45,576 nucleotides of DNA, taken from positions 1-45,576 of the forward strand of contig DXAB01000059.1 of the NCBI GenBank assembly GCA_019117265.1. The letters run 5' to 3'. The position numbers and the translations under genes were made by a program. Source of the stretch: Candidatus Olsenella pullicola (GTDB lineage: Bacteria > Actinomycetota > Coriobacteriia > Coriobacteriales > Atopobiaceae). Under the pieces are notes generated by a model. That model ran no database searches. It was not told the DNA's origin and saw only the letters and a program-made list of their open reading frames with translations. Positions 5,303-45,483 of this stretch are shown one piece after another; the first letter of the stretch is position 1; each line of letters begins with the position of its first letter.

Positions 5303-6466
5303 TTAATGTGATGCGGATTGTCCCAAATCGTCCCTATTGCACCCGTTTCCTGCGGCACGATAGCGCATCCAAGCGCCTGCGACCGTCTGCGCGAAAACCT
5401 CCTCGCGTGGGCGGTCGTAGTGCATCTCGCCGACATTTCGACCGGCATGGCCCATCATCGACTCCAGCATGTCCTCCGCAACGCCCAGCTCCCAGCGCAT
5501 GAAGGTGCGCCACGAGTTCCGGAGGTTCTGAAGCGGGATGGGAGAGACCCCTGCGCGCTCGCACGACGCGAGCCAGGCGTCGCGCGCGGCCCTGCGAGAC
5601 ACTGGGCTTCCGCACCCGTCGTCGCACAGCCACGGACCCTCCTGGGCGATGACGTCAGCCGACCATGGCTCCGGGACGATGACGGGGCGCTCACTCTGGG
5701 GCGTCTTGAGCGACGGGAGCTCGTGGCCGCGCGCGTCTATCTGCCGCGTCACGTCAACTACAGCAACAGTCATGCCGCTGGCCGTCACTGTGCGCACCTC
5801 GCCCATGTCGACGCGCGGCCCGAAGGCCTCGCCGACGCGGCACGACGAGAGGCCGCACAGGATGGCTGGCAGGTATGCTACGGTCCCGCGAGCGGCGTCG
5901 ATGGCAGAGACGGTCTCGGAGAGCGTCAGCACGTCTTTGGGCCTCACGCGCTCGATGCCGCGCGGCAGGCGGTACCGCGCGGCAGCCGTATTGTGATCCA
6001 TCGCCTCGTACCTAACGCACATATCGAGGACCTGCCGGAGAAGGCACAGGCTTGCGCTCGCCATCGAGCGCGTCATGCCGGACAGCAGCCACGACTGTAT
6101 GTCGAGCGGTCGCACGTCCGTTACGGGAAGCTCGCCGAAGGCCGGTCGTATGTGGCTCTCCCAGCGGCTCAGGTAGTTGCTGACGGTCGACTTCGACGCC
6201 TCCCCGCGCTCGAATCGGTCCATGAGGTCCGGCAGGTACCACGCCTCCCACGCCTGCCTGAGCGTGGGCGTGGGCCTGTCCTGCGAGTGCTCCACGCGCA
6301 GCCGCGCGAGCGCCTCGTCGCCGTCGCGGCGCGAGCCGACTATGGTCACGGAGTGGCGGACGTACCCGCGCCCGTCGTGAAGGTCGGCCCAGTAGCGCAG
6401 GCGGCGCCTGCCGTTTCCGGCGTCCTCGTTGGTGCCCCACGTGCTGCGGTGTCTCTTACGTGGCAT
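5303..6466 (-). CDS. int: Tyrosine recombinase, prophage integrase
   Basis: Catalyses attP x attB recombination. The 387-residue protein has an N-terminal arm-binding region, a SAM-like core-binding domain (about 68-165) and a C-terminal catalytic domain. Visible catalytic residues are R210 (SSCRVGEA), K254 (LKTPQSER), R316 (QNLRNSW), H340 (MMGHAG) and Y350 (EMHYDRP). The usual first His of H-x-x-R is Gln here, as in some actinophage integrases. I chose ATG at 6466 because GGAGGA lies about 7 bases upstream; the ORF-track start adds 12 residues without a ribosome site. The 3' end lies 29 bases from attL and converges with leuS. A hairpin-T-tract reading toward it from the host side overlaps its leader on the opposite strand. 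Confidence 0.95.
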   Translation of the reverse strand: MPRKRHRSTWGTNEDAGNGRRRLRYWADLHDGRGYVRHSVTIVGSRRDGDEALARLRVEHSQDRPTPTLRQAWEAWYLPDLMDRFERGEASKSTVSNYLSRWESHIRPAFGELPVTDVRPLDIQSWLLSGMTRSMASASLCLLRQVLDMCVRYEAMDHNTAAARYRLPRGIERVRPKDVLTLSETVSAIDAARGTVAYLPAILCGLSSCRVGEAFGPRVDMGEVRTVTASGMTVAVVDVTRQIDARGHELPSLKTPQSERPVIVPEPWSADVIAQEGPWLCDDGCGSPVSRRAARDAWLASCERAGVSPIPLQNLRNSWRTFMRWELGVAEDMLESMMGHAGRNVGEMHYDRPREEVFAQTVAGAWMRYRAAGNGCNRDDLGQSASH

Positions 6467-6504
6467 AATGGTGTCCTCCATCCTGTCGTAGGGTGGACTC
6501 ACTT

Positions 6505-22004: not shown

Positions 22005-23431
22005 GGCGCGGGCGCCAGACGCCGACCTTCGAGCGCGTGGGCATCTGCGACCACAGCGACGGCCCGGAGGCGGTCGCGCTCTTCGAGGGCTACGGCGTGC
22101 GCTTCATCCCGGCGCAGGAGTACGAGATGGAGCTCTACCTCGCCAAGAACGAGCTGGGCGAGTGCGAGGCCATCACCATCGGGCTGAGCAGGCCGCGACA
22201 GAACGGGAAGTCGTTCGCGGCGCGCTACTACGCGCTGTGGTGCGCTTTCGTGGAGGGCAGGAGCGTCCTCTACAGCGCGCACAACGGCTCCACCACGCGC
22301 AAGATGTTCAAGTTCATGTGCGACTTCATCGAGGCGCACGAGGACTTCCGCCGCAAGCTCAAGCCGGGCAGCCAGGGCATCTACAAGGCGCAGGGCTCCG
22401 AGGGCATCTACCTCGCAGACGGAACCGTAATCGAGTTCTCCACCCGCACCAACAGCGGCGCGCGCGGAGGCACCTACGACGTCATCATCGTTGACGAGGC
22501 GCAGGAGCTCACCGACGAGCAGCGCGACGCCATGATGCCCACGACCATCGCGTCGGACTCCGGCGACCCGCAGATGATCTACATCGGCACGCCGCCGAAC
22601 GCGAAGTGCCCAGGTACGGTGTTCCGCGGGCTCCACGACGATGCGCACAGCGGCGAGCTTGGAGGCGCGTGGTGGCTCGAGTGGGCCGCGACCGAGATAG
22701 GCGACACGCAGGACGTGGAGCGCTGGTACGAGTGCAACCCCATGATGGGCTACCGCATCAAGGAGCGCTCGATGCGCAACATGGCCGAGACCGTGGGGAG
22801 GACGTCGCCCGACAGCTTCGCCCGAGAGTACCTGGGCTGGTGGGACGCCTCGACCGCCGCCGTGGAGCACGTCATATCGGAAAAGGCGTGGGCGCTCTGC
22901 GAGACCGACGAGCCGCCCGAGCCGCGCGTCACGTGCGCCGGCGTCAAGTTCGGCCCCGACCGCGCGACGCTGGCCTACTGCCTGCGCCCCGCCGAGGGCG
23001 CCGCCTACGTGGAGTGGGTGGACACCCGCCCGCTCTCCGAGGGCGTCGGCTGGGTGGCCGCGTGGCTGGACGCCCGCCGCGACAAGGTCGCGACCGTCGC
23101 CATCGACGGCGGCAGCACGGCGGCGCTCACGACGAGGCTCGCGGACGTGGGCTTTCCAAAGAAGGCAATCGTCACGGCAGGCCCGCGCGACATGGCGAGA
23201 GCCGTGTCCATGCTCACGAACGCCGTGGCCGAGCGCGACCTCTCCCACTACGGGCAGGACGAGCTGACCGCCTCCGCGACCCTCACCGCGAAGCGCCGCA
23301 TCGGCGGCGACGGCGTGGGCTTCGAGGACGCGGGCGGCGCCGACGCGACCCTCATAGAGGCCTGCGCGCTCGCGCTGTGGCAGGCCAAGACGACGAAGAG
23401 AAACCCCGCGAGGAAGCTGAGGATTGGCTGA
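22001..23431 (+). CDS. terL: Terminase large subunit
   Basis: 476 residues. The packaging ATPase-nuclease: Walker A GLSRPRQNGKS (61-71), Walker B YDVIIVDEAQE with D165/E166, a coupling motif IYIGTPP, and a C-terminal RNase H-like nuclease whose first acidic strand is VAIDGGST. ATG 22001 overlaps terS. The ORF-track extension upstream is another frame through terS. It is followed directly by the portal. Confidence 0.95.
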   Translation: MRRGRQTPTFERVGICDHSDGPEAVALFEGYGVRFIPAQEYEMELYLAKNELGECEAITIGLSRPRQNGKSFAARYYALWCAFVEGRSVLYSAHNGSTTRKMFKFMCDFIEAHEDFRRKLKPGSQGIYKAQGSEGIYLADGTVIEFSTRTNSGARGGTYDVIIVDEAQELTDEQRDAMMPTTIASDSGDPQMIYIGTPPNAKCPGTVFRGLHDDAHSGELGGAWWLEWAATEIGDTQDVERWYECNPMMGYRIKERSMRNMAETVGRTSPDSFAREYLGWWDASTAAVEHVISEKAWALCETDEPPEPRVTCAGVKFGPDRATLAYCLRPAEGAAYVEWVDTRPLSEGVGWVAAWLDARRDKVATVAIDGGSTAALTTRLADVGFPKKAIVTAGPRDMARAVSMLTNAVAERDLSHYGQDELTASATLTAKRRIGGDGVGFEDAGGADATLIEACALALWQAKTTKRNPARKLRIG

Positions 23432-24837
23432 TGGACCTTTCGGGAATCACGAGCGCGGCGGGGCTGGACGCTGCCGACAAGGATGCGCTCAACGAGCTGG
23501 TCGAGGTCGCGCAGGCCGTTGAGCCGCGCAACCGCACGCTCGACGCCTACTACGAGGGCGAGCATCCGACGCCCAGGATAGGCATCGACAACATCCCCGA
23601 CAGCGTGGACCCCGGCGTGCGCAGCGACTGGGCGCGCAAGGCCGTGACCAGCGTCTCGGAGCGCGTCCGGATGGACGGCTTCACCTTCGCGGGGGACTAC
23701 GAGGACGAGGACTTCGACCGCATCGAGCTCGAGAACGACCTCTCCGGCGCCTTCAACCGCACCGTGGCGAGCGAGCTCACGCACGGGTGCATGTTCGCGA
23801 CCGTCCAGCGCGTCAGCGACCGCGCGGTCGTGCGGATGCACAGCGCGGAGACCGCCGTCGCGACGTGGGACGTTGCCGAGCAGCGCGTCGGCAGCGGCCT
23901 CGTCATCGCCGACATGCGCCGCACGGACTGGGGAGGGCTCAAGCCGGTGCCCGTGCAGGCCAACCTCCACCTGCCGGGGCGCGTTGTCGTGCTCCGGCGC
24001 GTCCTCAGCACGTCATGGGTCGCCGAGACCCTGCCCACGCCGCTCGACCGGCCCATGATGGAGGCCTTCTGCTTCCGCCCGACGGGCACCAAGCCGTTCG
24101 GCCAGACCCGCATCACGCGAGCGGTGCGCTACCTCGTGGACGAGGTGGAGCGCACGCTGCGCTACATGGCCGTGTCCGGCGCATTCTACGCCATCCCCAT
24201 GATGGCCGCGACGGGCCTCACCGACGAGCAGTTCGACGCGATGAGCAAGAGCAAGTGGCTCATGCGCGTGGGCAGCTGGTTCCTAGCCACGAGGGACGAG
24301 GACGGCAACGTCCCGGAGCTGCAGCAGTTCTCCGGCGTCTCGCCGCAGCCCTACATCGACGCCATCATGACCTACGCCAAGCTCTTCTCGGGCGCCACGG
24401 GCGTGCCGCTGAACTCGCTCGGCATCGTCCAGGACAACCCCAGCTCCGCCGAGGCGATAGCGGCCCAGCGCGAGGACATATGCGTGGCCGCCGAGGACTG
24501 CATCGAGTCCAACCGCGCCTCCATGCGAAACGTCGCGCTCATGGCCATGGCCGTCGCCGGAAACACGACCATCGACGGACTCACCGACGATCAGCGCAGC
24601 GTCATCCCGCACTTCCGCAACCCCATGCGCCCGTCGCTGGCCTCCACGGCGGACGCGATGACCAAGATAGCAGCGGTCGTGGACGGATTCACGATGACGC
24701 GCGAGTTCTGGGCGGGCCAGGGCTTCGACACGGCCGAGGTGGACAGCATCCTCTCGCAGGTCAACGCCAACCGGAACTCGGCGGCCATCATGAGCATCAT
24801 GGCGGGCGGCTCTGCGACCGCGCGACCGTCGGAGTAG
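23431..24837 (+). CDS. Portal protein (SPP1 gp6-like)
   Basis: 468 residues. Forms the dodecameric portal through which DNA enters. Matches the SPP1-type portal by length and by features such as YYEGEHPTPRIGI, the WARKAVTSVSERVRMDGF core, the GTKPFGQTRITRAVRYLVDE wing and TGVPLNSLGIVQDNPSSAEAI. Overlaps the terL stop by one base. The MuF gene starts 3 bases after it. Confidence 0.93.
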   Translation: MDLSGITSAAGLDAADKDALNELVEVAQAVEPRNRTLDAYYEGEHPTPRIGIDNIPDSVDPGVRSDWARKAVTSVSERVRMDGFTFAGDYEDEDFDRIELENDLSGAFNRTVASELTHGCMFATVQRVSDRAVVRMHSAETAVATWDVAEQRVGSGLVIADMRRTDWGGLKPVPVQANLHLPGRVVVLRRVLSTSWVAETLPTPLDRPMMEAFCFRPTGTKPFGQTRITRAVRYLVDEVERTLRYMAVSGAFYAIPMMAATGLTDEQFDAMSKSKWLMRVGSWFLATRDEDGNVPELQQFSGVSPQPYIDAIMTYAKLFSGATGVPLNSLGIVQDNPSSAEAIAAQREDICVAAEDCIESNRASMRNVALMAMAVAGNTTIDGLTDDQRSVIPHFRNPMRPSLASTADAMTKIAAVVDGFTMTREFWAGQGFDTAEVDSILSQVNANRNSAAIMSIMAGGSATARPSE

Positions 24838-24840
24838 CGA

Positions 24841-26088
24841 ATGGTCGCGACCATACCGCGCGCCGTCCTCGAGTACGTCACCGAGGAGGTGAACGAGCTC
24901 TCGGCGGACGCTCAGGCGCGCGTGCTCGCCGTGCTGGAGTCCATAACGTGGACGCCAGAGACCATCGCCGAGTGCCGCGACGTCGTGATCCAGGCGCTCG
25001 CGGCGATCATGCCGACCTACACCGACGCCGCCGCTCAGGTCGGGGCCGACATGTACGACGCCGTGCGCGAGGCTGCGGTGGGCGAGGCTATGGGGGCGAC
25101 CGCCGTCAGCGGCTACGAGCCCGAAGCCATCGCCGGGGCCATCAGGGCCTTCGTCCAGGGTATCGTGGACGGCAAGCCCGTCGAGCAGTTCAACCGCAAG
25201 GTGCTCGCCCGCGTCGACCGCGACGTGCGCCGAGCCGAGAACGTGAGCGTCGCCGAGAACGCGATGCGCGACCCGCTGAGGCCGAAGTACGCCCGCGTGC
25301 CCAGCGGCTCCGAGACGTGCGGGTTCTGCCTCATGCTCGCCTCGTTCGGGTTCCACTATTCGGACAAGAGCGCGGCGAGCCATGCGCACGAAAACTGCGA
25401 CTGCCGCGTGGTGGCCCGGTTCGACAAGTCGGGGGTGGAGGGCTACGACCCCGACGAGATGTACCGGCACTACAACCAGTGCCTCGACTCGCTCGGTGGC
25501 ACCTCTGGGATACGGAAGCAGTGGAACAGTCTCCCGGAGGGGGAGCGGAAAAGGCTCATCGAGAAGCACGGGGGCAAGGAGTCCGATGCGTTCCAGGCCT
25601 TCCTCAACGGGCGCATGGCGGCGGAGATCGAGACGCGAGACCCCGAGTGGTTCAGGACCGGAAAGGTCCCCGCATACCGTGAGGAGAGCGGGGCGTCCCC
25701 TGATGAGTTCGAGAGGGCATGCGGAGAGCTGCTGAGGTCCAACGGGCTTCCCGTCGAGTTCCGAAAGACGAGGGGAGACCAGCCGGGCGGATTCAGGCGC
25801 CGGACATCAGACGCGTTCATAAAGGGCGTTGCGTGGGAGATGAAGAACCCCGAAGGCAACGGCCACCTGACCGTCTGGAACCAGTTCAAGAGTGCCGTGT
25901 ACGGAAACGACAAGAAGACCCCGAACCCACAGAGCGACAAGCTGATCATCAGCAACGTAAGGAGCGAAAAGACCTTCGGGCAGATGGTCGATGACGCTCG
26001 GAAGGTTCTCGATGACGGGGAATTTCCTGAGATAACCGAGGTCATCATCGTCGGGAGGGATGGGTCCATGAGAAGGCTCGAGAGATAG
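24841..26088 (+). CDS. MuF head protein with a C-terminal PD-(D/E)XK (CdiA tRNase-like) toxin domain
   Basis: 415 residues. The first about 215 are a MuF/VG15-type minor head protein, with ETCGFCLMLASFGFHYS (Cys near 160) and HAHENCDCRVVARF, found beside portals. Typical family members in this clade end soon after that motif. Here another 200 residues follow: a linker (220-280) and a domain with SDAFIKG (D324) and WEMKNPEG (E333, K335), then TVWNQFKSAVYG, SDKLIISN and ITEVIIVGRDGSM. That is the D...E-x-K layout of the CdiA C-terminal tRNA-nuclease family. MuF proteins with toxin tails are a described class of phage polymorphic toxins. The tail codons look less GC-biased, suggesting acquisition. 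No immunity gene follows; a tRNA-Leu does. Confidence 0.85.
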   Translation: MVATIPRAVLEYVTEEVNELSADAQARVLAVLESITWTPETIAECRDVVIQALAAIMPTYTDAAAQVGADMYDAVREAAVGEAMGATAVSGYEPEAIAGAIRAFVQGIVDGKPVEQFNRKVLARVDRDVRRAENVSVAENAMRDPLRPKYARVPSGSETCGFCLMLASFGFHYSDKSAASHAHENCDCRVVARFDKSGVEGYDPDEMYRHYNQCLDSLGGTSGIRKQWNSLPEGERKRLIEKHGGKESDAFQAFLNGRMAAEIETRDPEWFRTGKVPAYREESGASPDEFERACGELLRSNGLPVEFRKTRGDQPGGFRRRTSDAFIKGVAWEMKNPEGNGHLTVWNQFKSAVYGNDKKTPNPQSDKLIISNVRSEKTFGQMVDDARKVLDDGEFPEITEVIIVGRDGSMRRLER

Positions 26089-26158
26089 CGAGAAAGCCGA
26101 CGGTCGTTCCGGCACACTGGCCGGCGCGCATCGGCTTCTCATGAGAAGTATACCCCAG

Positions 26159-26243
26159 CGGGGCGTGGCGGAAACGGCAGACGCGCCGGTCTCAGGAACC
26201 GGTGGGGGAACCCGTGCGGGTTCGAGTCCCGCCGCCCCGACCA
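26159..26243 (+). tRNA. tRNA-Leu(CAG), complete with encoded CCA
   Basis: Acceptor CGGGGCG pairs fully with CGCCCCG (26233-26239), followed by A and CCA. D-stem GCG/CGC, anticodon stem CCGGT/ACCGG with loop CTCAGGA (anticodon CAG), a class II long variable arm with GGG...CCC, and T-stem GCGGG/CCCGC around TTCGAGT. It reads CUG leucine codons. It lies inside the late operon, 70 bases after the MuF toxin gene and before the scaffold gene, and is followed by two terminators. Confidence 0.95.
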
Positions 26244-26260
26244 ACCATTTTTCAGAAATC

Positions 26261-26281
26261 AGCCCCGCACGGGGCTCTTTT
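26261..26281 (+). terminator. Hairpin terminator after tRNA-Leu
   Basis: AGCCCCG-CA-CGGGGCT followed by CTTTT. It probably helps define the tRNA 3' end or attenuates late transcription. Confidence 0.7.
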
Positions 26282-26288
26282 CATATCG

Positions 26289-26311
26289 GGCCGCAGAAGT
26301 GCGGCCTTTTT
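26289..26311 (+). terminator. Second hairpin terminator before the scaffold gene
   Basis: GGCCGC-AGAAGT-GCGGCC followed by TTTTT. Two more GC palindromes with a CGCACGG core (26320-26335, 26342-26357) follow before the scaffold ATG. Confidence 0.7.
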
Positions 26312-26371
26312 CATGCCGCGACGCCGCACGGCGTCAAGACGCGCGCCGCACGGCGCGGAAAGGGGGCCTGA

Positions 26372-26917
26372 ATGGCCGAGAACGGGCAGGGCGCACAGAC
26401 CACGGAGCCGACCGGGGCGGAGCCGCACGGCACCGAGCCGACCGAGCCAGAGAGGGACTGGAAGGCCGAGTACGAGAAGGCAATCGCCCAGTCCCGCAAG
26501 TGGGAGCAGCGCAGCAAGGACAACGCCGCAGCCGCGAAGGAGCTTGAGGCGCTGAAGAACGCCTCCAAGACCGACGCCGAGAAGCTGGCCGACGCCACCA
26601 AGCGAGCCGAGAAGGCCGAGGAGAAGCTCGCCGATTACGAGCGCAGGGCCGAGCGAGCCGCAATCGTGGCGGAGGTGGCGGCTGCCAAGGGCGTGGACGC
26701 CGAGTGGCTGGGCCGAATGACCGGAGACACGGAGGCGGAGATCAACGCCAACGCGGACTACATCGCGTCAAAGCTCAGCGGCGCGCCCATCTACCCGAGC
26801 GTGCCCGACAACGGCGGGCGCAAGGCCGCGCCCATCACGCGCGAGCAGATCGACGCCATCAAGGACCCCAGGGAGCGCGTGCGAGTGCGCGCGCAGCATC
26901 TGAACCTCTACAAGTAA
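26372..26917 (+). CDS. Capsid scaffolding protein
   Basis: 181 residues, mostly an acidic-basic coiled coil (about 30-105, KAEYEKAIAQSRKWEQRS...AEKAEEKLADYERRAERAAI), with a Thr/Pro/Glu-rich head and a basic tail (RVRVRAQHLNLYK). This is the DUF4355/gp20-type scaffold that directs shell assembly and is later removed. It lies directly before the major capsid gene. Confidence 0.85.
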   Translation: MAENGQGAQTTEPTGAEPHGTEPTEPERDWKAEYEKAIAQSRKWEQRSKDNAAAAKELEALKNASKTDAEKLADATKRAEKAEEKLADYERRAERAAIVAEVAAAKGVDAEWLGRMTGDTEAEINANADYIASKLSGAPIYPSVPDNGGRKAAPITREQIDAIKDPRERVRVRAQHLNLYK

Positions 26918-26929
26918 GGAGGGCCGTCA

Positions 26930-27853
26930 ATGGCCGTACTTGACAACACCACCCTCGCCGAGAACATCGCCAAGGCGCAGGACATCGAGATGATCCAGAA
27001 CTTCGACGGCGACGTGAACCAGCTCACCGAGGTCCTTGGCATCATGCCGCCCGAGATCATCGCGGCCGGCTCCGCGATGTACCAGTACTCCGTGACCGGA
27101 ACGCTCGAGACAGACGCCGTCGCAGAGGGCGACGAGGTGCCGCTGTCCGAGTACAACGTCACCCAGACGCCCATCGGCGCCATCACGGTGAAGCCCTACC
27201 GCAAGCTGACCACCGCCCAGGCCATCCTCAAGGGCGGCTACGAGAACGCCATCGCCAAGACCGACAAGAAGATGGTCAACCAGGTGCGAGACGGCATCCT
27301 CGCCGACTTCTTCACCTTCCTCGACAACGGCACGTCCACCGCGACCGGCGCCGGCCTCCAGGCCACGCTCGCCCAGATGGCGGCCAAGCTCCAGGACGAG
27401 ACCCAGAAGAACTCCGACCCCACGGGCTCCGTCGTGTACTTCGTGAACCCGTTCGACATCGCGGACTACCTCGCCAACGCGCAGGTGACCACCCAGACCG
27501 TCTTCGGCATGACCTACATCCAGAACTTCCTTGGCGTGCAGAACATCATGGTCACCAACAAGGCCACGGCCAAGACCGTCTACGCGACCCCGGTCGAGAA
27601 CATCCACATCTACGGCATCGACTTCGCCACGCTCGCCGACGCGGGCCTCTCCTACACCACGCAGGACGGCTCCCTCATCGGCGTCCACCACACGCCCGCG
27701 TACAACCGCACGTCCGCCGAGACCTACGTGCTCTCCGGCGCGCTGATGGTCCCCGAGTACAAGAACTACATCGTCAAGGGCACCGTCGCCGCCGCAGACC
27801 CGCAGAAGGTCTCCGTGGTCGGCACCGTCCAGACGGAGGCCCAGTCTTCTTAG
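26930..27853 (+). CDS. Major capsid protein, HK97 fold
   Basis: 307 residues with an AAGGAGG-type site. Typical phage capsid segments: EVLGIMPPEIIAAGSAMYQYSVTGTLE, then YRKLTTAQAILKGGY, the P-domain helix region, and GVQNIMVTNKATAKTVYATPVENIHIYGID near the C-terminus. The N-terminal arm lacks a long delta domain, in line with the separate scaffold. Rich GC-optimised codons suggest high expression. A HeH-like ORF in another frame begins 29 bases later. Confidence 0.93.
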   Translation: MAVLDNTTLAENIAKAQDIEMIQNFDGDVNQLTEVLGIMPPEIIAAGSAMYQYSVTGTLETDAVAEGDEVPLSEYNVTQTPIGAITVKPYRKLTTAQAILKGGYENAIAKTDKKMVNQVRDGILADFFTFLDNGTSTATGAGLQATLAQMAAKLQDETQKNSDPTGSVVYFVNPFDIADYLANAQVTTQTVFGMTYIQNFLGVQNIMVTNKATAKTVYATPVENIHIYGIDFATLADAGLSYTTQDGSLIGVHHTPAYNRTSAETYVLSGALMVPEYKNYIVKGTVAAADPQKVSVVGTVQTEAQSS

Positions 27854-42673: not shown

Positions 42674-45300
42674 ATGGCAAAGACTCGCGTACATGACCTT
42701 GCTAAAGAGTACGGGATGTCCAGCAAGGAGATGCTCGAGCATCTCCAGGACATGAAGATCCCCGCAAAGTCCGCGTCCTCAACGCTGGAGGACGCCTACG
42801 TCTCCATGGTGCGCAAGAAGCTCAAGCCCATCCTCGAGGCCCGTGCCGCCGAGATTGAGGCCGCCAAGCGCGCCGAGGAGGAGGCCAAGGCCGAGGAGGC
42901 CCGCATCGCCGCCGAGAAGGCCGAGGCGGAGCGCATCGCCGCCGAGGAGCGCCGCGAGCGCGAGCGCGCCGAGGAGGAGCGCCGTCGTGCCGCCGCCGAG
43001 GCTGAGCGCAAGGCTCGCGAGGCAGAGAAGGCCGAGGCCGAGCGCCGCGCAAAGGAGGAGGCAGAGCGCAGCCGCGTTCGTGACAACGCCCCCAAGAGCG
43101 TGCCCTCGTTCACCTCGCTGCTGGACCAGATCGCTCAGCAGGAGGAGATCCTCAAGAAGCAGGCGGAGGAGTCCTCGCAGAAGAAGGCCGCCGAGAGAAA
43201 CCGCCCGGCCCGTCACGCCGATGGTGCGCGCGGCGGAGCCCGTCACGCTGCCCCCGCCCCTGCCGCCGCTGACGCCCCCGCGGCACCGAGCGGGGATGCC
43301 GGCGGCCGCCGCCGCGGCAAGAAGGGCCGCCGTGGCGAGGATGGCGGCGAGGACCGCTACAGCCGCATGGCTCGCGAGGCCGAGGCCTATAACCGCAGCC
43401 GCGTTCTCGAGGAGGCCCGCGTGGCCGTTGAGGAGGCGTCCCGCGAGTCCGGCGGCCGCCGCAAGCGCCGCAAGGAGCGTCGTCAGAAGCAGGCTGCCGA
43501 GGCCGCGATGGAGCAGCGCATCGAGGAGGCGCTCGCCAACGACCAGGACCTCTCGCAGCTCGACACCGTGAAGGTCCCGCAGGGCTCCACCGTGGGCGAG
43601 CTCGCCGAGCTTCTCGGCGTTCCCGCCAACGACATCATCAAGCGCCTCTTCCTCCTGGGCACCCCGCTCACGCTCACTGAGTCCATGTCCGACGAGCTCA
43701 TCGAGCTCGTCGCGGATGACCTCGGCCGTGACGTCAAGGTCATGACCAAGGAGGAGGAGAACTCCTTCACCTTCTACGACGACCCTGCAGACCTCAAGCC
43801 GCGCCCGCCCGTGGTTACCGTCATGGGCCACGTCGACCACGGCAAGACGTCGCTTCTCGACGCCATCCGCCACACGGGCGTTGCCGCGGGAGAGGCCGGC
43901 GGCATCACCCAGGCCATCGGCGCCTCGCAGGTCACCATCAACGGTCGCATCATCACCTTCATCGACACCCCGGGCCACGAGACCTTCACGGCCATGCGCG
44001 CCCGTGGCGCCAAGGTGACCGACATCGTCATCCTCATCGTCGCGGCCGATGACGGCGTCATGCCGCAGACCATCGAGTCCATCAACCACGCCAAGGCCGC
44101 GGGCGTGCCCATCATCGTTGCCGTCAACAAGATCGACAAGCCCGGCGCCAACCCCGACAAGGTGCGTCAGGAGCTCACCGAGTACGGTATCATCCCCGAG
44201 GAGTGGGGCGGACAGAACATGTTCGTCAACATCTCCGCCAAGCAGAAGATCGGCATCGACGACCTGCTCGAGACCGTTCTTCTCCAGGCGGACGTCCTCG
44301 AGCTCAAGGCCAACCCCGACACCTTTGCCTCGGGAAATGTGCTCGAGGCCAAGCTCGACCGCGGGCGCGGCTCCGTTGCCACCGTCCTTGTCACGCGCGG
44401 TACCCTCCACATCGGTGACGCCCTCGTTGCCGGCATGTCCTACGGTCGCGTCCGTGCGATGCTTGACCCGAAGGGCAACGCCGTCACCGAGGCCGGCCCC
44501 TCCGACGCCGTTGAGATCCTCGGTCTCCAAAGCGTGCCCATGGCTGGTGACGAGTTCCGCGTCTTCCACGACGAGCGTGACGCCCGCCAGCTCGCTGACG
44601 AGCGCGCCCTCAAGGCCCGCATCGAGGAGCAGAACCGCGTGAAGCACGTCACGCTCGAGAACCTCTTCGACACCATGGCGGACGCCGAGGTCAAGGAGCT
44701 CAACCTCATCATCAAGGCCGACGTCGTTGGCTCGATCGAGGCACTCCAGGACTCCCTCGACAAGATGGACCAGTCCGAGGTTCGCATCAACACGATTCAC
44801 TCCGCCGTCGGCGCCATCACCGAGACCGACGTCATCCTCGCGGACGCGTCCAACGCCATCATCATCGGCTTTGGCGTGCGCCCGGAGGCCAAGGCCAAGA
44901 CTGCCGCCGAGCGCGACGGCGTGGAGATTCGTACCTACAGCGTCATCTACAAGGCCATCGAGGACATCGACGCAGCCCGCATCGGCATGCTCAAGCCCAC
45001 CGAGGTTGAGGTCCAGACCGGCGTTGCCGAGGTCCGTGACACCTTTAAGGTCCCCAAGGTCGGCATTGCCGCCGGCTGCATGGTCCAGGAGGGCGAGATC
45101 TCTCGCGACGATCAGGTCCGTCTCGTGCGTGACGGCATCGTCGTCTACGACGGCAAGATCGCCTCGCTGCGCCGCTACAAGGACGACGTCAAGAGCGTCA
45201 AGGCTGGCTTTGAGTGCGGTATTGGCCTGGAGAACTTCCAGGACGTCAAGCCCGGCGATCAGATCGAGGGCTATCGCATCGAGCAGGTCGCACGCACCGT
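42674..45300 (+). CDS. infB: Translation initiation factor IF-2 (C-terminus cut by contig junction)
   Basis: GTPase that places initiator tRNA on the ribosome. N-terminal IF2_N domain ([24 protein letters not shown]), a long Glu/Arg/Ala coiled region typical of the family, G1 GHVDHGKTS (near 384), DTPGHE, and NKID, then domains II-IV. AAGGTAGG precedes the ATG. The native reading runs to RIEQVART at about 45300 and then enters foreign sequence, so about 876 residues are seen and the normal last few codons and stop are replaced. The ORF-track end at 45379 is an artefact of that junction. Confidence 0.95.
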
Positions 45301-45483
45301 CATGGTCTTGGTCAGGATCTTATCCTCTTCATGGCGCTTGGTGGAACTGAGCTGCTCCTCCATGAAGGTGGTGACCTGATCCATGTAGAGATCAATATTG
45401 GGGATGTCTTCCGGTTTTACATAGTCGATCCGCGCAATGCTGGACAGAATGCTGTTCAGCATGTCCTTTGTATCAATTGTCAT
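45301..45483 (-). CDS. 5' fragment of a clostridial DUF1836-type gene (chimeric sequence)
   Basis: The minus strand encodes about 61 residues: MTIDTKDMLNSILSSIARID, then NIDLYMDQVTTFMEEQL and KRHEEDKILTKTM. This is the start of a DUF1836 protein of Lachnospiraceae-type Firmicutes, including the KILTKTM motif that normally goes on as INNY. The frame breaks into infB-complement at 45300. It has a GAGGTGA ribosome site and its own promoter. Base composition is much AT-richer than the rest of the window. DUF1836 function is unknown. Confidence 0.8.

Follow-up and report, generated by a model that had tools for sequence, protein, structure and literature searches.

Polymorphic toxins linked to the MuF head proteins of temperate phages are already known, as a preliminary description of the DNA studied here stated, and the small open reading frame (ORF) found downstream of 89.4% of MuF toxin genes, a usual but not universal feature, is predicted to encode the immunity protein (Jamet et al. 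2017; PMC5576092). In contact-dependent growth inhibition (CDI), the solved complexes of PD-(D/E)XK toxins have protein CdiI partners; the C-terminal toxin (CdiA-CT) of Protein Data Bank (PDB) entry 4g6v cleaves tRNA-Ala in the acceptor stem, and the superfamily also contains DNases (PMC9086364). Here, we analyzed 45,576 nt from Candidatus Olsenella pullicola (hereafter the window), which make up the whole of contig C194 in a 2.26 Mb draft genome, and in particular the head-protein gene at 24,841–26,088 with the short region that follows it. The explanation that we consider probable is that this gene encodes a packaged CdiA-type toxin, that immunity is provided by a trans-acting hairpin RNA and that an adjacent tRNA serves as a replacement or cleavage-resistant substrate. 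All results are computed, and the functional claims are predictions.

The ORF at 24,841–26,088 (forward strand) encodes a 415 aa protein of three parts, namely a VG15/MuF head domain (PF25310; relatives carry MuF-like annotation), a linker and a C-terminal PD-(D/E)XK nuclease. A head protein with a CdiA tRNase-like C-terminal domain had been proposed at this place in the preliminary description, and the ORF, the VG15 match and the fold agree with it. The residues singled out there, D324, E333 and K335 in the motifs SDAFIKG and WEMKNP, were found and are invariant in 19 aligned related tails from Coriobacteriia prophages. The CdiA_C profile (PF18451) aligns with residues 321–409 of the window protein over profile positions 1–80 of 81 (E-value = 1.9e-4, slightly under the curated cut-off) and matches 15 of the 19 related tails (best E-value = 9.4e-10). 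In a Foldseek search with the AlphaFold model of the tail (pLDDT 89.2, pTM 0.82), a single PDB entry passed E ≤ 0.001: the B. pseudomallei 1026b CdiA-CT/CdiI complex (4g6v_A, E-value = 1.7e-5, probability 1.00), which also ranked first in a profile search of PDB sequences (E-value = 6e-4; all others ≥0.2). The tail thus combines the PD-(D/E)XK fold with the D...ExK residues of CdiA-CT toxins and, by analogy with this nearest structure alone, most likely cuts tRNA. Relatives of the toxin domain were absent from the results of four tail queries against a collection of annotated phages, three giving no match and the fourth chance-level matches. A candidate stand-alone toxin near position 1,954,551 of contig G041:C1 was rejected as a decayed MuF fragment. 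Short CdiA_C-like proteins (family f2; L265, L266, L267, L270, and L279), which lack the promoter-hairpin described below, occur in genomes of the same order and form a possible control group.

Composition differs between the two ends of the gene, with a GC content of 69.0% and a GC3 of 94.0% in the VG15 part vs. 59.1% and 78.0% in the nuclease part, in line with the less GC-biased tail codons noted previously. An exchange point had been placed at about residue 220. The tail is indeed swapped, but the boundary proved fuzzy: the alignment of siblings with other tails (L003, L004, and L006) is confined to about residues 220–277, and because this linker is common to them, the nuclease proper begins near residue 280.

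Two circumstances under which the toxin proposal would have failed, a tail conserved in all siblings and a tail without a nuclease fold, both turned out otherwise. The VG15 relatives bear nuclease tails (in three groups), ADP-ribosyltransferase tails (PF03496, E-value = 2.3e-22), Gln_amidase papain-fold toxin tails (PF15644, E-value = 9.9e-16), HExxH-like tails or none, that is, the swapped variable C-terminal toxin domain of MuF systems. Mapped onto a tree built from 83 VG15 domains, the presence of a nuclease tail switches 18 times, and well-supported branches force at least five of these switches. Two prophages of a single genome (L095 and L102) have near-identical VG15 domains and different tails; the former carries nuclease, hairpin and tRNA, the latter has neither the hairpin nor an adjacent tRNA. 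Where the toxin tail is of another kind, for example ADP-ribosyltransferase or Gln_amidase, a small ORF mostly occupies the place of the hairpin. As a separate observation, small ORFs are mostly the next genes after the ADP-ribosyltransferase, Gln_amidase papain-fold and HExxH-like MuF tails of L093, L107, L159, L131, L143, and L149.

A 93% identical copy of the fusion protein is present in a prophage of Thermophilibacter provencensis (same genus), the sole match when the genome contigs were scanned with P0001. Identity between the two prophages is 89% for the portal segment, 90% for VG15, 97.9% for the nuclease, 100% for the hairpin region (70/70 nt), 95% for the tRNA, 78% for the scaffold gene and 41% for the capsid gene. 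Since identity is highest over nuclease, hairpin and tRNA, these three appear to have been exchanged as one block.

Downstream of the toxin, an ORF scan of 26,086–26,371 gave no convincing protein gene, since every frame in it either spans the tRNA or continues into the scaffold gene, and neither a small downstream immunity ORF of the MuF kind nor an adjacent gene of the CdiI type was present in this interval. The earlier statement that no immunity gene follows therefore stands for protein genes, but the position is taken by genes for a candidate small RNA and a tRNA (Table 1). The predicted fold of the candidate RNA has a free energy of −29.6 kcal/mol (z = −3.96), a stability that no sequence among 200 shuffles reached. 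The nuclease-tail relatives have a hairpin at the same location, with a T-run at its end in most of them. A strict two-hexamer sigma-70 scan reported no site at the promoter-like element, as expected where an extended −10 site has no −35 box. The hairpin was also considered as a plus-strand element; this idea was dropped because TATACCAC is GTGGTATAAT on the minus strand and because most copies have their T-runs at the 3′ end of the minus strand.

Table 1. Coordinates in the window of the toxin fusion gene, the elements that follow it and selected phage genes.
Feature	Position	Strand	Basis or remark
Integrase gene	5303..6502	-	phrog_1, 1.5e-23
Portal protein gene	22606..24837	+	phrog_104, 4.6e-79
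VG15/MuF head-protein domain	24841..25485	+	PF25310 5e-54, residues 6-214; PHROG head maturation protease matches; downstream of terminase and portal genes
Linker or pre-toxin segment, helical	25486..25662	+	Helices in AlphaFold model; common to some siblings with other tails
PD-(D/E)XK nuclease toxin domain	25663..26085	+	Catalytic residues, AlphaFold, Foldseek 4g6v_A, CdiA_C in relatives
Catalytic codons	D324 25810-25812; E333 25837-25839; K335 25843-25845	+	19-tail alignment
Toxin stop codon	26086..26088	+	Scaffold gene is the next protein gene, from 26372
Candidate small RNA, hairpin of about 50 nt with asymmetric internal loop	26090..26140	-	Convergent to toxin gene, ends at toxin stop
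Extended -10 promoter-like element GGGGTATACT	26147..26156	-	Place and motif common to relatives, many with the form GTGGTATAAT
tRNA-Leu(CAG)	26159..26243	+	ARAGORN; Rfam RF00005, 52.1 bits
Two terminator-like hairpins ahead of scaffold gene	26261..26307	+	
Head scaffolding protein gene	26372..26917	+	phrog_9857, 6.5e-28
Major head protein gene	26930..27853	+	phrog_544, 4.3e-40

We compared nuclease tails with other MuF loci of Coriobacteriia, treating the loci as independent. Under a lenient definition, the promoter-hairpin accompanies 28 of 35 nuclease tails and 5 of 59 other loci (p = 1.4e-12). Under a strict one, combining position, motif and fold, with 1.4% expected from dinucleotide shuffles, the figures are 22/32 and 0/62 (p = 4e-14), after three loci that were nuclease by profile and without the catalytic core (L088, L004, and L116) had been removed by hand; most of the 10 strict misses have a hairpin with a weaker −10 element or at another distance. 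A tRNA on the same strand within 350 nt is likewise associated with nuclease tails (20/35 vs. 3/59, p = 2.2e-8).

In Mantel tests, similar hairpins go with similar toxins (r = 0.20, p = 0.0008), whereas no such relation holds for the VG15 domains (r = 0.03, p = 0.32). Orphan nuclease cassettes also lie away from MuF genes, some of them in arrays; a promoter and hairpin of their own accompany many of them at the same distance, and some carry a tRNA as well. A covariance model of one hairpin subfamily matches the 3′ ends of toxin genes, and 37 of 300 Coriobacteriia genomes yield a match to it (E ≤ 0.1). Among 27 distinct sequences of this subfamily, 96.3% of the cells are paired, compared with 31–45% when the partner is slid, and double-sided changes occur in 55 cells vs. 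14 in shuffles; this alignment was fitted to the model, which favors the structure, and a six-sequence alignment made without fitting agrees. An unpaired core, ACGCCC...GGGACACGG, is near-invariant and the outer stem varies by compensatory pairs, a combination that suits protein binding better than antisense regulation.

Many of the subfamily matches are stand-alone genes with no converging toxin, one of them in the window's own genome (L339, G000:C142:25742-25788, 50.2 bits), and no model of Rfam 15 matches the hairpin family at curated thresholds. On these sequence data, we regard the hairpins as a genuine RNA family that probably acts in trans. Toxin-less orphan immunity genes occur in other polymorphic toxin systems. 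The orphan hairpin copies resemble them and argue against a local antisense role. Several further observations concern these copies. Stand-alone hairpin genes with a −10-like element and a terminator, and with no toxin alongside, were recorded on many Coriobacteriia chromosomes (L339, L340, L341, and L343–L356), and several have flanks in common across families, which suggests mobile islands. Near the stand-alone hairpins at L340, L347, L355, and L365, or directly beyond them, the stretch TTTTGGAGCAGTG..TCTGACTGGTAATC recurs. At about 2,080–2,240 of L365 (G308:C21), a prophage-like locus with no adjoining nuclease, two different toxin-type hairpins form a tandem pair, each with its own −10 element.

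The tRNAs adjoining nuclease tails are mostly Leu(CAG), Trp(CCA) and Gln(CTG). The window's tRNA-Leu(CAG) is unlike the host copy in both acceptor stem and anticodon loop. The prophage tRNA-Leu(CAG) genes are mostly of one type, with the acceptor stem CGGGGCG, a C1-G72 pair and the loop CT[CAG]GA (CC[CAG]GA in two), while the intact host gene has the stem GCGGGCG and the loop TT[CAG]GT. The phage tRNA-Trp has the anticodon loop of the host and differs in the remainder. The notion that the tRNA isotype is a readout of toxin specificity was weakened by L125 and L146, where the same toxin and hairpin type stand beside a Leu and a Trp tRNA, respectively, so that tracking is not strict; this mismatch suggests that the tRNA is probably an exchangeable helper. 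Our preferred reading of the tRNA is that a replacement or resistant species is supplied during late expression.

Putting these elements together, we propose that the head protein, built from VG15/MuF, linker and CdiA-type nuclease, would be packaged as an antibacterial toxin and delivered with the virion, and that its nuclease most likely cleaves tRNA. The immunity element would not be a protein but the hairpin RNA of about 50 nt, transcribed from its own extended −10 promoter toward the toxin stop; it may act in trans, most simply as a decoy or inhibitor that binds to the nuclease, and lysogens could produce it at times when the late operon is not expressed. The tRNA-Leu(CAG), which is phage-specific and shares the strand of the late operon, probably survives or replaces the tRNA destroyed by the toxin when the fusion protein is made.

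Several points weigh against this proposal. The CdiA_C score of the window tail (22.0–24.0 bits) is below the curated Pfam cut-off of 26.6, and the CdiA_C-like short proteins of family f2 have no hairpin. The U-rich end of the window hairpin is weak, the subfamily covariance model (R1) does not pick this hairpin up, and its own type is confined to the window and T. provencensis; a loose pattern for this type, run over 300 genomes and viral contigs, returned chance matches apart from these two. With only two genomes carrying it, the window hairpin is supported by its position, its promoter motif and its stability, and by analogy with better-sampled relatives. In the wider comparison, several nuclease-tail hairpins are under the strict threshold or further downstream, two of 32 nuclease-tail loci (L092 and L126) are without a clear hairpin, and 12 nuclease-tail loci have no tRNA within 350 nt. 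The tree-based test left five usable pairs on well-supported branches, too few for significance, with the hairpin labels of six loci set by hand. The L125/L146 tRNA mismatch and the stand-alone copies, which could have another function, are further difficulties.

The precedents with which we began favor a different source of immunity, namely an unrecognized protein encoded elsewhere in the prophage, with the hairpin as a regulatory small RNA or terminator and the tRNA as incidental: CDI toxins of this fold are solved with protein partners (PMC9086364), most MuF toxin genes precede a small ORF (PMC5576092), and our check for an immunity protein covered part of the window's ORFs, leaving room for such a gene. 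We nevertheless hold this unlikely, since small ORFs go with the other toxin tails and the hairpin with nuclease tails, orphan cassettes retain the hairpin away from the MuF gene, and stand-alone hairpins without a converging toxin speak against a purely local regulatory role. The last point bears also on a type I-like alternative, in which the hairpin is an antisense regulator of the 3′ region of the toxin mRNA and curbs synthesis in the producer cell. As this alternative would have it, the hairpin converges on the toxin gene and is complementary over its full length to the mRNA segment directly after the stop codon, but it covers the 3′ untranslated part only and could not neutralize an injected toxin protein; the chromosomal copies have no toxin gene beneath them, and the invariant core with its compensating stem fits protein binding better. 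Antisense regulation is, in our judgment, highly improbable.

The tRNA, rather than the hairpin, might be the antidote, as a cleavage-resistant or replacement copy with the hairpin secondary. The predominance of three isotypes beside nuclease tails, their differences from host tRNAs, and the proposal that phage tRNAs with altered anticodon loops evade tRNases (PMC10264068) favor this; however, the 12 nuclease-tail loci without a nearby tRNA mostly retain the hairpin, the phage tRNA-Trp has the host anticodon loop, and the same toxin and hairpin type goes with different tRNAs at L125 and L146, which makes the idea very unlikely. A tRNA gene that replaces a host gene broken by prophage integration, as in the tRNA-dependent lysogeny demonstrated in actinobacteriophages (PMC10865867), is largely refuted here and deserves almost no credence: host tRNA-Leu(CAG) is intact in the window genome (G000) and in several others with such prophages (G092, G098, G059, G296, G131, and G179), which argues against that mechanism, and the tRNA sits beside the toxin, not the integrase, and follows the nuclease tail. 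Finally, the nuclease might cut DNA, as do the CdiA toxins of TA271 and YPIII; the PD-(D/E)XK CDI superfamily to which they belong holds both activities (PMC9086364). We think this quite unlikely, because no entry other than the tRNase 4g6v matched significantly in structure or in sequence and because tRNA genes travel with nuclease cassettes.

The temperate phage origin of the window is evident from its genes for an integrase, an anti-repressor, a RecT-like protein, a helicase, a terminase, and portal, head and tail proteins, in keeping with the phages in which MuF toxins are found. Near its right end, a 901 aa ORF (42,674–45,379) has a partial match to a PHROG named translation elongation factor. 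Elsewhere among the MuF loci, a HINT/intein-like segment splits the VG15 domain at a Cys-rich motif in a viral contig (L009:5685-6917), a CRISPR-like repeat array lies beside decayed MuF remnants at about 5,600–6,230 of L162 (G041:C1), and an Rfam DUF3800-I RNA (73.3 bits) was found upstream of the MuF gene at L125:648-766.

We lean, with less assurance than a firm claim would need, toward viewing these cassettes as a polymorphic toxin family with RNA immunity, in which a cassette-borne hairpin gene takes the place of the immunity protein gene, orphan copies reside on chromosomes and a phage-type tRNA is often added. The polymorphic toxin systems cited here use a protein for immunity, and a small ORF is what annotation pipelines seek; if our proposal is true, many seemingly immunity-less toxins merit re-examination, orphan immunity RNAs could be searched for as a class, and phages of common gut bacteria would decide through RNA which cells survive a packaged toxin. 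Some phage tRNA genes would also gain a testable rationale through their co-travel with a probable tRNase of the same phage. A search of the open-access literature on RNA immunity for polymorphic toxins found nothing relevant.

The type III toxin-antitoxin systems (ToxIN-like) also oppose an RNA antidote to a protein nuclease, through a tandem-repeat RNA located upstream of the toxin on the same strand. That likeness is limited to the antidote principle, with direct neutralization at our locus suggested by the trans-acting distribution of the hairpin. The candidate RNA here is not an upstream tandem repeat but a single convergent hairpin, which stands downstream on the opposite strand, with its own promoter, a polymorphic toxin and stand-alone copies. 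The idea of an RNA antidote is thus already known, and what appears to be new is that an RNA with orphan copies would confer immunity to a polymorphic toxin that is packaged. Phage tRNAs that counter tRNases (PMC10264068, PMC11555353) have in common with ours an altered anticodon loop, but the tRNase in those systems is host-borne, whereas here tRNA and probable tRNase belong to one phage cassette. Similarly, tRNA-dependent lysogeny (PMC10865867) involves a prophage tRNA in an actinobacterial temperate phage; here the host tRNA of the same isotype is undisrupted and the phage tRNA lies beside the toxin. With CdiA-CT of Bp1026b (4g6v; CdiA_C, PF18451), the best structural and profile match, the window tail shares the PD-(D/E)XK fold and the D...ExK core; that toxin is delivered by CdiA and has a CdiI protein partner, whereas the window tail is only 12% identical to it, has no such partner at 26,086–26,371 and is a tRNase by presumption. 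The MuF polymorphic toxins (PMC5576092), also described as MuF phage-capsid-like systems (PMC3482391), share with the window the head-protein N-terminus, the swappable C-terminal toxins and the temperate phage setting; where they mostly have a small ORF next, taken as the immunity protein, the cassettes described here have a convergent gene for a candidate hairpin RNA and often a tRNA gene.
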